DNA from: Bacteroidota bacterium
GTDB taxonomy: Bacteria; Bacteroidota; Bacteroidia; AKYH767-A; 2013-40CM-41-45
Assembly (NCBI GenBank): GCA_003389385.1
Contig: QQVM01000003.1
Coordinates: 1 to 64,000 of the forward strand
Direction of reading: 5' to 3'
Length of the DNA stretch: 64,000 bases
Part shown: positions 27,929 to 45,670 of the stretch, in pieces
Position numbering within the stretch: the stretch's first letter is position 1
How the letters are laid out: the number at the start of each line of letters is the position of its first letter
Notes under the pieces: generated by a model
The model's input: the letters and a program-made list of their open reading frames with translations, nothing else
Told to the model about the DNA's origin: nothing
Databases searched by the model: none
Program-made: the position numbers and the translations under genes

Positions 27929-29275
27929 ATGAAGACATTTACAAGGAATCTCGTCGTTATTGCGGCATTATTTATTTCTGCCATTTGCCATGCACAGCTG
28001 AGGACAAGTATTGGCATTGGTCCGCTCCCTGCAGACAATGAGCCTGTTTGTCCTGTTCAGATATTCGGCGGAGGATTTAACACCAGTGGCTACCAGGAAA
28101 CAGATACTGTTCCGGATTTTACATTGTATGATCTGAACGGTGACAGCATGAACTTGTCAAGCACATTAAATTCAGGTAAGCCAATATTACTGATTGCGGG
28201 AAGCTATACTTGTCCGGTTTTCAGAAATAAAATCGCCAGCATAAATAACGTAGTGAATACATATGATACACTAATCAGTGTATTTGTCGTGTATACTTTA
28301 GAAGCTCATCCGGATGTGGATATCAGCGTGTATTCAGGCAATGTAAATCCTACATCTGGAAATATAGCAGCCGGAATATTATATCGTCAACCCACCACGT
28401 ACGGAGAAAGAAAACTCATCGCACAGGATCTTCTGGATTCTATGGCTATTAACGCAAGAGTTTTGATAGACGGACCCTGCAACAACTGGTGGCTGAATTA
28501 CGGCCCCGCTCCGAATAATGCTTACCTGATTCGGCCTGACGGAGTTGTCTTTGCAAAGCACGGCTGGTATGACAAGAGTCCGGAAAACATTCTTTGTGAC
28601 CTGGATTCATTATTGGGTTTAAACGGCAACTGCAATACATCCACAGGTGGAAATGGTACATTCACTTACCGAATGCTTACTTCTAATCAAATGACCGGTC
28701 CTCAGGGAAGCACAATAACAATCAGCGGAGAACTTCAAAACAACGGCGGAAGCGATATCGAAATCATCATGCAAAGACTGATCAATGATATTCCTTCCGG
28801 ATGGAGCACTTCTTTGTGTGCGGATGTATGTTATCAGACCTTTGAAGATTCCGTTCACTTCATTCTGCCCGATGGCTATCTGCAGCCTTTTCACTTTTAC
28901 TTTTTCACAAGTATGGGTCTTGACACAGGAATGGCCCGTGTTCGATTGATGAATGCAAGGAACAATTCCAATTCTTATACATTCAATGTATTCGGGCGAA
29001 CAAATGGACAGATCACATCCGTTGATGAGTCTCAAATGCAAGAGGAGTTGTTTAGCTTATACCCAAATCCGGCCAGAGGTTTCGTTCAGATCTTTGCAAA
29101 AGGAAATTCAGGTGAAAAATTAAATCTTGACTTGCTGGATGCACAGGGAAAAATTGCGTTGTCCCACTCAGGCATTTTACCGAATTCGATTCTCAGGATT
29201 GACATATCAGATCTTTCGCCGGGAATATATTTCGCCAGACTCGGAGAAACTGTGAGCAGACTGATAGTGCGTTGA
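27929..29275 (+). CDS. T9SS-secreted protein with deiodinase-like thioredoxin-fold domain
   Basis: 448 aa. Signal peptide (1-22, ending CHAQ). Residues ~60-230 look like the iodothyronine-deiodinase family: VPDFTLYDLNG, GSYTCPVFRNK with Cys95 where animal enzymes carry selenocysteine, VVYTLEAHPDVD (the EEAH-type strand), RQPTTYGERKLIAQDLLD, VLIDGPCNNWW and NAYLIRPDGVVFAKHGWYD. A beta-rich domain (~240-360) and a T9SS type A sorting domain (LYPNPARGFVQI ... GIYFARLGETVSRLIV) follow. Likely a surface or secreted redox protein; the substrate is unknown and iodothyronine activity is not implied. Stands alone, converging on the M20 gene. Confidence 0.8.
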   Translation: MKTFTRNLVVIAALFISAICHAQLRTSIGIGPLPADNEPVCPVQIFGGGFNTSGYQETDTVPDFTLYDLNGDSMNLSSTLNSGKPILLIAGSYTCPVFRNKIASINNVVNTYDTLISVFVVYTLEAHPDVDISVYSGNVNPTSGNIAAGILYRQPTTYGERKLIAQDLLDSMAINARVLIDGPCNNWWLNYGPAPNNAYLIRPDGVVFAKHGWYDKSPENILCDLDSLLGLNGNCNTSTGGNGTFTYRMLTSNQMTGPQGSTITISGELQNNGGSDIEIIMQRLINDIPSGWSTSLCADVCYQTFEDSVHFILPDGYLQPFHFYFFTSMGLDTGMARVRLMNARNNSNSYTFNVFGRTNGQITSVDESQMQEELFSLYPNPARGFVQIFAKGNSGEKLNLDLLDAQGKIALSHSGILPNSILRIDISDLSPGIYFARLGETVSRLIVR

Positions 29276-34596: not shown

Positions 34597-35958
34597 TTAA
34601 CTTTTCCTGATTCTGTTAAGAATAAAATTTTCTACTTTCTTAGTATGCCAGATTTTCTGGATGTTTTTCATTTTCATTACCTCATTCATGATTTCCTCCT
34701 GGCGCATTCCGTTTGCAAGCGCTTTGGAATAAGGGGTGTGGCTGAACGTAACCTGAGAATACAAAGGCAGCCATTTTGAAGGGTGAAGCTCATGCATTCT
34801 CGCTTCAATTTTCTTACGAAGTAAAAACTCAGGATGACCTACTTTGTCGCGCATCTCATAGAAATTCATCACGGCAAGTTCGGCGATCGCGTCCGCATCA
34901 GGTTTCCTTGTACTCTGAAATTCCGGAAGTATTTTTGTCCAGTCATCCTTGTGCTTGTTCATCAGGCGATCCAGCACGGTACAATCTTCAAATCCGCAGT
35001 TCATGCCCTGACCGTAGAATGGAACAATGGCATGAGCAGCATCGCCAATCAGGCAGGCCTTATCCTTGTATGCCCATGGAAAGCATTTCACTGTCACCAG
35101 GGAGCTTGTAGGATTTCCGAAGAAATCTTCTGTGAGAGTGGGCATCATTGGCACCACGTCCGGGAAAACTCTTTTGAAGAAGGCAACACATTGTTTCTTT
35201 GTTCGAATTGATTCAAAAGAATCCTTTCCCGTAAAAGGGAAAAACAATGTACAAGTAAAACTTCCGTCCAGATTCGGAAGGGCGATAAGCATATAACCTC
35301 CGCGAGGCCAGATATGCAGCGCGTTTTTTTCCATTCTAAAACTGCCGTTCTTACCGGGAGGAATCAGCAGTTCTTTGTATCCGTGATCTAGATATGACTG
35401 GCTGTACTCGAAACGGTCAGTTGTAATTTGCTGTTGAAGTCGCGCAATGGAGAATGCCCCATCAGCCCCGAAAATCAGGTCACTGTCGATTGTGGTAGCC
35501 ATATTTGCAGCTTGATTTTCCATTCTCGCGGTTCCTTCCTCCAGGTCAACCCAGGTGCAACGCTCATTGAAATAAATCTTCACTCCGTGCTTTTCCGCGA
35601 GGTTCATCATTTCGCAGTTAAGGATTCCACGTGAAGCTGCGTAAATCGACTGATTCTTTTTTCCGTAAGGCTGATAAGAAAGCTTTCCCTTCTGGTCATG
35701 CATCATCCTTCCGTGCATAGGAATTGCAATCTCTCTGATTTGCTCCTCTATGCCAACACCGCGTAAACCCTTCCAGCCTCTGTCACTCAATGCCAGGTTG
35801 ATTGAACGTCCTGCGGAAATTTTCTCTTTCCTCATATCAGGCCTGCGTTCATAAATGGTGACATTGTAACCGCGCTTTGCGAGATAAATTGAAAGCAGGC
35901 TGCCAACCAGACCGGCGCCGAGTATTGTGATGTCCCTTACTTTTTTGGATTTTTTCAT
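34597..35958 (-). CDS. kmo: Kynurenine 3-monooxygenase
   Basis: 453 aa from the ATG at 35958 (a GTG at 35964 is in frame). FAD hydroxylase: GAGLVG (14-19), SAGRSINLALSDRGWKGL, GILNCEMMNLA, and the GDAAHAIVPFYGQGMNCGFE FAD/substrate motif. Hydroxylates L-kynurenine with NADPH. Downstream partner of kynU, 39 bp apart; together they feed 3-hydroxyanthranilate to quinolinate/NAD. The 3,4-dioxygenase is not in the window. Confidence 0.96.
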   Translation of the reverse strand: MKKSKKVRDITILGAGLVGSLLSIYLAKRGYNVTIYERRPDMRKEKISAGRSINLALSDRGWKGLRGVGIEEQIREIAIPMHGRMMHDQKGKLSYQPYGKKNQSIYAASRGILNCEMMNLAEKHGVKIYFNERCTWVDLEEGTARMENQAANMATTIDSDLIFGADGAFSIARLQQQITTDRFEYSQSYLDHGYKELLIPPGKNGSFRMEKNALHIWPRGGYMLIALPNLDGSFTCTLFFPFTGKDSFESIRTKKQCVAFFKRVFPDVVPMMPTLTEDFFGNPTSSLVTVKCFPWAYKDKACLIGDAAHAIVPFYGQGMNCGFEDCTVLDRLMNKHKDDWTKILPEFQSTRKPDADAIAELAVMNFYEMRDKVGHPEFLLRKKIEARMHELHPSKWLPLYSQVTFSHTPYSKALANGMRQEEIMNEVMKMKNIQKIWHTKKVENFILNRIRKS

Positions 35959-35997
35959 ATACACTTTATGTTATCTGATTAAAAGGGCTGCTCGATT

Positions 35998-37287
35998 CTA
36001 CTGAAGGCTTTGTTCGAGGTGCATACCAAATGTAAACACATCTTCAAATGAATTATATAAAGGCACAGGCGCGGCACGCATGACATCCGGCTCACGCCAG
36101 TCGACAATCACTCCCTTTTTTACCATATTCTCATAAACGCTTTTTCCGTTTTTACGGATAATCATGGAAAGTTGGCATCCTCTCTGTCCAGAATCAGCCG
36201 GTGAAATAATTTCCACCGGCTCATCAAGGCCGGCATTCATGCGGGATTCATTGATCGATCGAATGATGAACTCCAGATATGCTGTCAGCTTTTGGCTCTT
36301 TGCTGCGAGGCGGTTCATTCCGGCTTCTTCAAAAATATCAAGGGATGCTTTCAGAGCAGACATTGACAGCACAGGCGCGTTGCTCAGCTGCCAGCCTCTT
36401 GCGCCTTCAGCAGGAACAAATTTCCTGGGCATCTGAAAACGGGTATCCGGGTCGTTACCCCACCATCCGGCAAAACGGGGAAGCGCGGGATTGTTCTTAT
36501 GTTTTTCATGCACAAAGATTCCGGAAACTCCACCGGGACCGGAATTCAGGTATTTGTAACTGCAAAAGCAGGCATAGTCAACATTCCAGTCATGGAGCCT
36601 GAGTGGCACATTACCTGCAGCGTGGGCTAGATTCAGTCCGTATGTAGCTCCCGCTTTATGAACAGCTTTTCCGATTGCATCGATTTCAAAAAACTGTCCG
36701 GTATAATAATTCACCGCACCCAGCATCACTGTGGCAAGGCTGCTGCCATGTTCTTCGATTTTTGCAATGATGTCTTCAGTTCTCAGCACATGTTCACCTT
36801 TTCTGGGTTTAAGAAAAACCACAGCATCATCCGGGTTGAATCCGTGAAAAGCTGCTTGTGACTGCACTGCATACAGATCTGAAGGAAAAAGATCGTACTC
36901 GCAAATTATTTTATAACGCTTTTTATCAGGCCTGTAAAAAGAAACCATGAGAAGATGAAGATTGGTTGTGAGTGAATTCATTGCCACCACTTCATCATTC
37001 TGAGCGCCCAAAAGATCTGCGATCTGTACAGTGAGAAAATCCTGATATTCAAACCATGGCATACGTGCATGAAAATGTCCTTCAACACCCCAACTCGCCC
37101 AATCTTCAAGTTCCCTCAGTACGTAATCCTGAGTGCTTTTAGGCTGGAGCCCGAGTGAATTGCCTGTCATGTAAATCACATCTCTACCGTCCATCTGCGG
37201 GAAATAGAATTTTTCCCTGAAGCCGGCCAGGCTGTCCTGGTCGTCCATTTCCCATGCAAATTCAAGAGTATTTTCAAATCCTTTCAT
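35998..37287 (-). CDS. kynU: Kynureninase
   Basis: 429 aa PLP enzyme. N-terminal YMTGNSLGLQPKS, LTTNLHLLMVSFY, catalytic Lys in FCSYKYLNSGPGGVSG, then GWWGNDPDTRFQM and VIVDWREPDVMRAAPVPLYN. Splits 3-hydroxykynurenine to 3-hydroxyanthranilate and alanine. Operon with kmo; divergent from hemL with a shared 115-bp promoter region. Confidence 0.96.
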   Translation of the reverse strand: MKGFENTLEFAWEMDDQDSLAGFREKFYFPQMDGRDVIYMTGNSLGLQPKSTQDYVLRELEDWASWGVEGHFHARMPWFEYQDFLTVQIADLLGAQNDEVVAMNSLTTNLHLLMVSFYRPDKKRYKIICEYDLFPSDLYAVQSQAAFHGFNPDDAVVFLKPRKGEHVLRTEDIIAKIEEHGSSLATVMLGAVNYYTGQFFEIDAIGKAVHKAGATYGLNLAHAAGNVPLRLHDWNVDYACFCSYKYLNSGPGGVSGIFVHEKHKNNPALPRFAGWWGNDPDTRFQMPRKFVPAEGARGWQLSNAPVLSMSALKASLDIFEEAGMNRLAAKSQKLTAYLEFIIRSINESRMNAGLDEPVEIISPADSGQRGCQLSMIIRKNGKSVYENMVKKGVIVDWREPDVMRAAPVPLYNSFEDVFTFGMHLEQSLQ

Positions 37288-43915: not shown

Positions 43916-45670
43916 ATGAAAAACTCTACCAGATTTCTTGCAGTGATCCTCATGGTCTGCTGCTCCAGTTTTGCTTTTGCAACACAGAACCGGAACGCTC
44001 ATGTAGATAACTCTGCGGGCAAGCCAATCAACAAAGTTACAGTTCCTGCAAAGATGAACTCCACTCCTTTTTACAGTGAAGACTTTTCCGGAGGATTACC
44101 GGGAAGCTGGACTGCTGTGGACAGTGCAGGCAACGGTGTTAACTGGCGTTGGACCACTACAGGAATTTTCAATTACGGCACTCAGCCCGGACTGGATTCA
44201 CTTAGTCACAGCGGCACTACCGCCTCCAACGGATACATGATTTATGACAGTGATTCTTCCGGTGGCAGTGTAGGCGGAGAAAATGCAGACCTTATCAGCG
44301 GCTCTATTGACTGCTCAGCATATAGTGTGGTTCGCCTGTCTTTCAACCAGCTTTTGAAGCACTTTAATGAAATCGCCACAGTGCATGTCAGCAATGACGG
44401 CGGAACTACTTGGAGTATGGTTTACAACGCAAGTGCAGGCCTGACTCCGCACCAGGCGACCAGTAATCCGGATGCCATTGATATCGACATCAGCGCAGAA
44501 GCAGCAGGACAAATGGATGTGATGATCCGTTTCAATTTCACAGGCGATTATGACTTCTTCTGGATGATTGACGACGTGATGCTGTACGAGCCAACATCAA
44601 ACGATGCTGCCCTTGTTGACATTACTTCACCTCAAAATTCCTGCACAGGCTTATCGGCTACTGAAATTGTAACCGTGCAGATCTTCAACAACGGTAGCGC
44701 AGACATCAGCGGCTTCGATGTTTCTTATGTGTTGAATGGAGGAACTCCTGTGACTGAAACTGTTTCTGCCACAATCAATCCAGGCAACACACTTTCATAT
44801 GATTTCTTCATCACAGCAGATTTGTCTGTACCAGGTCCTCATACAATCCTTGCTTATACTTCCCTCGGCGGAGATACTTTGAACAATAATGATTCACTTT
44901 CCATCAGTGTTTACAGCGGACCGTACACAGTGTCATCAGCTTCCAATTTTACGATGGGATTTGAAGACAATGAAGACCTGAGCGGATGGGCAATTGAAGA
45001 CGGAAATTTCGATGGCAACATGTGGAACCTTAGTACTACCCTTCCTCGCACTGGTGCTGTCTGCGCTCGCATGAACACACCTGCAGCAGGCACTGTCGCT
45101 GATGACTGGCTGTTCACCAGCTGCATTGAACTCAGTGATACAGTCAGTTATGATCTTGAATACTACTACCGTACATTCTCTACCAGTACCAGAGCAATGT
45201 TTGAAATCATGATCGGAAGTGCGCAAAGTGCTGCCGGCATGACCCAGGTACTTGAGCCTTCTTTCATGGTATCAAACCTGAATTACGTGCAAAGAGTATC
45301 TAACTTCACTGTTTCACCTTCCGGAACTTATTTCATAGGATTCCATGTGACTAATGCAGATTCTGCAACTTCACTTCGTTTGGATGACATCAGGATTTCT
45401 CCTGCAAGTGGAACTGGAATCATGAAAAACACTCATTCAGGAATCAGCATTTATCCTAATCCCACAAGCAACAACTTACAAGTTCAGGGATTGTCTAATG
45501 GAGATAAGATTGAAATCTACAACAGCTTTGGCCAACTGATACATACACAGCATCACGCAGGCAGTGAAAAGGCAAATGTCAATCTGAGTTCTCACGCTAC
45601 TGGCACATACATTATTCGTGTAATTGGAAACGAAGCAACATCCACGCATAAGATTAATCTTATTCGTTAA
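43916..45670 (+). CDS. T9SS-secreted cleaved-adhesin-type protein, paralogue 1
   Basis: 584 aa. Signal peptide (residues 1-22), two cleaved-adhesin/choice-of-anchor-J-like domains (~50-225, starting FYSEDFSGGLPGSWTAVD; and ~335-490, starting MGFEDNEDLSGWAIED), separated by a CARDB-like Ig fold (~230-325), then a T9SS type A sorting domain (ISIYPNPTSNNLQVQGL ... GTYIIRVIGNE). Likely a secreted or surface-anchored protein. 187 bp upstream of a paralogue of the same layout. Confidence 0.88.
   Translation: MKNSTRFLAVILMVCCSSFAFATQNRNAHVDNSAGKPINKVTVPAKMNSTPFYSEDFSGGLPGSWTAVDSAGNGVNWRWTTTGIFNYGTQPGLDSLSHSGTTASNGYMIYDSDSSGGSVGGENADLISGSIDCSAYSVVRLSFNQLLKHFNEIATVHVSNDGGTTWSMVYNASAGLTPHQATSNPDAIDIDISAEAAGQMDVMIRFNFTGDYDFFWMIDDVMLYEPTSNDAALVDITSPQNSCTGLSATEIVTVQIFNNGSADISGFDVSYVLNGGTPVTETVSATINPGNTLSYDFFITADLSVPGPHTILAYTSLGGDTLNNNDSLSISVYSGPYTVSSASNFTMGFEDNEDLSGWAIEDGNFDGNMWNLSTTLPRTGAVCARMNTPAAGTVADDWLFTSCIELSDTVSYDLEYYYRTFSTSTRAMFEIMIGSAQSAAGMTQVLEPSFMVSNLNYVQRVSNFTVSPSGTYFIGFHVTNADSATSLRLDDIRISPASGTGIMKNTHSGISIYPNPTSNNLQVQGLSNGDKIEIYNSFGQLIHTQHHAGSEKANVNLSSHATGTYIIRVIGNEATSTHKINLIR

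Follow-up and report, generated by a model that had tools for sequence, protein, structure and literature searches.

What might a protein built around a deiodinase-like core do at the surface of a bacterium? The question is raised by one gene in the window, the 64,000-nucleotide stretch of Bacteroidota DNA analyzed here. By its sequence, the gene would code for a protein that is tagged for cell-surface export and has a core like that of the thyroid-hormone-deiodinating enzymes, with cysteine in place of selenium. Bacterial deiodinase-like proteins containing Cys or selenocysteine (Sec) were reported in 2005, with a suggested redox role (PMC1088965), and a 2026 review describes the function of such bacterial proteins as still largely unknown (PMC13188914).

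Gene and Family Distribution

The gene (Table 1) is solitary, with a divergent methyltransferase gene on one side and a convergent M20-type peptidase gene on the other. Its open reading frame contains all of the motifs quoted in the earlier note: GSYTCPVF with Cys95, TLEAHP, RQP...VLIDGPCNNWW, and PDGVVFAKHGWYD. When its flanks are compared with those of relatives, no neighbor recurs except a DNA polymerase III subunit gene, which the window shares with the surroundings of one relative (L076). Because the neighbors differ among relatives, gene context gives no information on the substrate. Elsewhere in the window, two adjacent genes at 34597-37287 resemble kynurenine 3-monooxygenase and kynureninase, as judged from sequences read by eye only.

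Among 395 genomes of the same class, a domain profile (E up to 1e-6) detects relatives of the protein in 47, and in the window's own order only 4 of the 42 genomes have one; these frequencies are rough because the sampled genomes represent part of the phylum. The distribution of the family is patchy. Thirty-one of the 47 score above 150 bits, and the remainder, mostly from one genus, score 36-61 bits. None of the relatives matched by this profile contains a premature stop. A second, weaker deiodinase-like group, at about 47-61 bits, is present in many genomes of genus g170 (G344, G481, G511, G538, G563, G588, G610, G632, G652, and others).

A search of a phage collection returned no deiodinase-like match. 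A plasmid collection contains one distant match, on Mycolicibacterium vanbaalenii plasmid NZ_CP126902.1 (L070, 3327-4714). The tail of an AhpD/CMD-type peroxidase-related gene overlaps this plasmid gene, and a glutaredoxin-domain gene comes after it, a pairing that hints at a peroxide/thiol role in the actinobacterial branch and is not evidence for the window protein.

Conservation was assessed in 32 full-length members with a mean column identity of 36%, all of which match the T4_deiodinase family (PF00837; E up to 0.01). Member lengths fall into two recurring sizes of about 320-330 and 410-460 residues. The longer members contain a beta-sandwich with a C-x-x-x-C pair, which is found in 18 of the 32 and missing from 14.

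Domain Architecture and Export

The window protein is predicted to consist of a signal peptide, a deiodinase-like domain, a beta-sandwich module, and a C-terminal type IX secretion system (T9SS) sorting domain (Table 1).

Table 1. Features of the exported deiodinase-like protein and their positions in the window.
Feature	Position	Strand	Basis
Exported deiodinase-like protein, whole ORF, 448 aa	27929..29275	+	ORF list, ATG start; architecture common to homologues across the class
Putative signal peptide, residues 1-22, predicted cleavage before Gln23	27929..27994	+	By eye; helix 4-18 in model
Cys41, predicted disulfide partner of Cys184	28049..28051	+	Co-occurrence in 32 members
Deiodinase-like thioredoxin-fold domain, about residues 50-236	28076..28636	+	PF00837; NF038285 below cut-off; Dio3/Dio2 best matches
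Putative reactive-site motif S92-Y-T-C95-P-V-F-R99	28202..28225	+	C95 and R99 in 32/32; position 94 T in 29, S in 3; S92 in 27/32
Y122...E125-A-H127-P128, matching YIDEAHP/YIEEAHP of Dio2/Dio3	28292..28312	+	H127 and P128 in 32/32; E125 in 31/32; Y122 in 27/32
Pro155, in the place of the second relay His (Dio2 His182)	28391..28393	+	4tr3 alignment; P in 22, H in 7, E in 2, A in 1 of 32
Cys184 in DGPCN motif	28478..28480	+	Perfect co-occurrence with Cys41
Asn196-Asn197, in the place of Dio2 Glu225-Arg226	28514..28519	+	4tr3 alignment; N196 in 27/32, N197 in 22/32, never E/R
Beta-sandwich module with CADVC Cys pair, residues 244-360	28658..29008	+	Model strands; Cys pair in 18/32
T9SS C-terminal sorting domain, residues 377-440	29057..29248	+	PF18962, TIGR04183

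The signal peptide, recognized by inspection, reads MKTFTRNLVVIAALFISAICHA and is followed by Gln23. The Ala22-Gln23 junction agrees with a published Bacteroidetes rule, by which signal peptidase I cleavage leaves Gln exposed (PMC5837995), and this supports the predicted cleavage site. At the other end, Por_Secre_tail (PF18962) matches residues 377-440 with 43.2 bits (cut-off 27, Pfam E 5e-11) and TIGR04183 matches with 36.5 bits (cut-off 23). Of the two export signals proposed in the earlier note, the T9SS tag is thus upheld and the signal peptide seems clear when the sequence is read by eye, and the protein is expected to reach the cell surface. The 3.36-Mb source genome encodes the T9SS translocon (SprA, 2655 bits) and at least 150 T9SS tags, so status as a T9SS cargo is ordinary for this host. 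Two further T9SS-tagged ORFs lie within the window, near 45449 and 47448.

Por_Secre_tail is carried by 25 of the 32 members. One member, L098, lacks the tag and begins with LSLSSC, a lipobox-like start (LSSC) that probably makes it a lipoprotein. This start in place of the tag suggests that export is retained in the family though the route switches, which is more informative than T9SS cargo status itself.

Modules like residues 244-360 also occur apart from the deiodinase-like domain. Stand-alone secreted proteins of about 235-240 residues (L037, 1456-2178, minus strand; L015, 1459-2160, plus strand) are made up of such a Cys-pair module and a T9SS tag, and by its sequence this type of module appears to be movable.

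Deiodinase Likeness

T4_deiodinase matches residues 71-208 of the window protein with 30.0 bits (cut-off 27, E 4e-7). AhpC-TSA and Redoxin, the kind of competing families whose higher scores would, by the earlier note, have refuted its reading, stay below their cut-offs at 17.0 bits (cut-off 26) and 16.5 bits (cut-off 26.6), and T4_deiodinase prevails. Membership in the NCBIfam family NF038285 (deiodinase_rel) was rejected: the protein scores 75.7 bits against a cut-off of 250 and aligns with profile positions 173-324 of 347 only.

Searches of solved structures with the family profile rank mouse Dio3 first (E 3.1e-11) and Dio2 second (1.7e-9), followed by ResA (2.8e-5). A domain-only profile gives the same ranking (Dio3 2.8e-10, Dio2 2.1e-8, next about 1e-4). 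The match with animal deiodinases stops near residue 211 of the window protein. Structure prediction yields a full-length model with a pLDDT of 79.1 and a domain model with a pLDDT of 93.9 and a pTM of 0.91, and Foldseek places Dio3 and Dio2 at ranks 1 and 2 with either model. In VIA-align, the domain model superposes on Dio3 (4tr3) with Z 18.3, rmsd 3.1, and 171 aligned residues and on Dio2 (9h48) with Z 18.1, rmsd 2.9, and 168 aligned residues. Thiol-disulfide oxidoreductases of the ResA type reach Z 15-16.6 and AhpE 14.3. The lead of the deiodinases in the fold scores appears genuine but modest, as would be expected within one fold superfamily. Profiles and models agree with the earlier note in pointing to a deiodinase-like domain with Cys for Sec, and on sequence grounds the protein is best filed in the T4_deiodinase superfamily rather than dismissed as a chance resemblance.

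The second-best fold matches raise the alternative of a TlpA/ResA-kind thiol-disulfide oxidoreductase working on disulfides of cell-surface proteins. TlpA, ResA, and DsbE share the fold superfamily and the extracytoplasmic location with the window protein, and they also give weak HMM matches. However, deiodinase profiles outscore them throughout, and the second active-site Cys is missing: the CxxC motif is found in none of the 32 members, and position 98 is mostly Phe. ResA membership was rejected on the missing CxxC, and a role of this kind is quite unlikely. Membership among the glutathione peroxidases was likewise rejected by scoring or motif search.

Active Site

The window protein shares with the animal deiodinases Dio1-3 a variant of the thioredoxin fold and a motif order of S-x-T-Sec/Cys-P, then Y-x-x-E-A-H-P, followed by a helix with a conserved Arg and a D...G...Y strand. 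It differs in having Cys for Sec, Tyr93 in the place of the Dio3 Cys two residues ahead of Sec, and a longer, differently conserved loop following EAHP. Animal deiodinases have an N-terminal membrane anchor, whereas the window protein has T9SS-tagged export.

Cys95 is encoded by TGT at 28211-28213. A selenoprotein identity was rejected, as Cys occupies this position in all 32 members, the relatives have no in-frame stops, and the genome has no SelB above the cut-off, so a Sec form is not expected in this host.

Eight residues are invariant across the 32 members: Cys95, Arg99, His127, Pro128, Tyr158, Arg161, Asp181, and Trp213. Their retention in such divergent proteins points to chemistry and argues against a surface protein with no enzymatic activity, either an adhesin or a ligand-binding protein, in which the fold would serve as a retained scaffold. 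This alternative gains some plausibility from the many T9SS cargoes that are binding proteins and from the occurrence of the beta-sandwich and tag alone in L037 and L015. The Cys pair of the beta-sandwich is missing from the 14 members noted above, and the scaffold reading is unlikely.

A proton relay formed by Ser127, Thr129, Tyr157, Glu160, His162, and His182 around Sec130 has been proposed for Dio2 (PMC11592359). In the 4tr3 alignment, its counterparts in the window protein are Ser92, Thr94, Tyr122, Glu125, and His127, with Cys95 at the place of Sec. The sixth residue is replaced by Pro155, and the place of the Glu-Arg pair, the proposed anchor for the amino acid part of thyronine, is taken by Asn-Asn. 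With the relay core retained and the distal His and Glu-Arg lost, the chemical core seems to have been kept while the features tied to thyronine have not. As an enzyme identity, iodothyronine deiodinase was rejected on the presence of Pro155 and Asn196-Asn197 and the lack of Sec, and thyroid-hormone deiodinase activity is unlikely.

The same residues bear on a wider dehalogenating role. As an extracellular reductive dehalogenase, the protein would use the Cys95 thiolate to take the halogen from an aromatic, for example an iodinated or brominated phenol, while the ring is protonated by His127 and the relay, as animal deiodinases do. The five of six non-Sec Dio2 relay residues with counterparts (PMC11592359) fit this proposal, as does the ranking of animal deiodinases as the closest solved structures. 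It is opposed by the loss of the sixth residue, with His present at that position in only 7 of 32 members, by the Asn-Asn pair, and by Cys itself, since a selenolate, being softer, is considered better suited to attacking iodine (PMC10298544). In addition, no halogen-related genes are found among the neighbors of the window gene. Such dehalogenation is therefore improbable, and its full form, in which T9SS would deliver a deiodinase-type reductive dehalogenase without selenium to the cell surface, there to strip halogens from aromatics outside the cell, is very improbable.

Cysteine Pattern

The mature window protein has seven Cys residues, at positions 41, 95, 184, 223, 235, 297, and 301. Of the 32 members, 28 have Cys41 together with Cys184 and the other four have neither, while Cys95 is always present. 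A Fisher test gives p 2.8e-5 for this association, a value that ignores kinship, and a tree count was relied on instead. On a maximum-likelihood tree, the four members without the pair are scattered, with four changes in Cys41/Cys184, at least two of which are forced by well-supported branches. This paired loss with Cys95 unchanged suggests that Cys41 and Cys184 probably form a disulfide and that Cys95 is the lone reactive thiol. In the mature form of L098, Cys95 is the sole Cys, which fits one-Cys chemistry.

An alternative is a relay of two or three Cys residues, in which oxidized Cys95 would form a disulfide with Cys184 and pass it to Cys41, as in the deiodinase cascade, before reduction by a thioredoxin-like partner. 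In the alignment, the segment containing Cys184 comes directly after Dio3's distal Cys, and the presence of Cys41 and Cys184 together in most members is consistent with such a relay, which for the paired loss would be roughly as good an explanation as a structural disulfide. Against it, the four members on separate branches without both residues retain Cys95 and its motif, and L098 has no Cys other than Cys95. The relay is unlikely.

Proposed Function

The window protein is proposed to be a one-Cys redox enzyme that is exported to the surface and built on a scaffold of deiodinase type. Given the sequence and model evidence, this reading has about an even chance of being correct. Its domain, tags, invariant Cys95, and retained relay core are established at the level of sequence and predicted structure; the surface location, the Cys41-Cys184 disulfide, the one-Cys chemistry, and the kind of substrate are deduced, and one-Cys chemistry would be the simplest reading of the Cys pattern.

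As a T9SS cargo, the protein would cross the outer membrane and end up either displayed at the cell surface or released from it. The deiodinase-type thioredoxin-fold domain would be the working part, in which the Cys95 thiolate attacks an electrophile and becomes oxidized, with Ser92, Thr94, Tyr122, Glu125, and His127 giving the pocket its shape and passing protons along. The likeliest chemistry would be one-Cys and peroxiredoxin-like, acting on a peroxide or another oxidized small molecule. Oxidized Cys95 may be recycled by an outside thiol, or the protein may serve for few turnovers. The earlier note had suggested a dehalogenase or peroxide-type redox role; the redox half is the likelier of the two, and the dehalogenase half, with the distal His and Glu-Arg missing and no halogen context, does not advance beyond a possibility.

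The structure of a mammalian deiodinase has been described as close to the atypical 2-Cys peroxiredoxins (PMC10298544). The one-Cys peroxiredoxin AhpE (1xvw) shares the fold superfamily and a lone reactive Cys with the window protein. However, the window protein scores under the AhpC-TSA cut-off, and the canonical peroxiredoxin motif, P-x-x-x-T/S-x-x-C, is missing at Cys95, which counts against the one-Cys reading: position 88 is Leu, Ile, Met, or Val in all 32 members and never Pro. Six members contain the pattern at cysteines other than Cys95. Membership in AhpC/TSA was rejected on the score and the motif.

Significance

The bacterial Cys and Sec deiodinase-like proteins described previously (PMC1088965, PMC13188914, NF038285) share with the window protein their bacterial origin, PF00837, and Cys for Sec. 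The reviewed bacterial Sec form has a UxxC motif (PMC13188914), whereas the window protein has CxxF and adds a signal peptide, a beta-sandwich, and a T9SS tag. No papers linking a deiodinase with type IX secretion were found in the open-access literature. Reports of bacterial Cys deiodinase-like proteins go back to 2005, but the subfamily that is exported and carries the T9SS tag seems to be a new form of them.

The family bears on the role of bacterial deiodinase-like proteins (PMC1088965, PMC13188914). Its members are natural versions based on Cys, some of them very poor in Cys residues, and are expressible without selenium machinery. The family also separates the residues of the deiodinase active site into those that are kept (Ser, Thr, Cys, Tyr, Glu, and His), which may serve general redox chemistry, and those that are lost (the distal His and Glu-Arg), which may serve thyronine.
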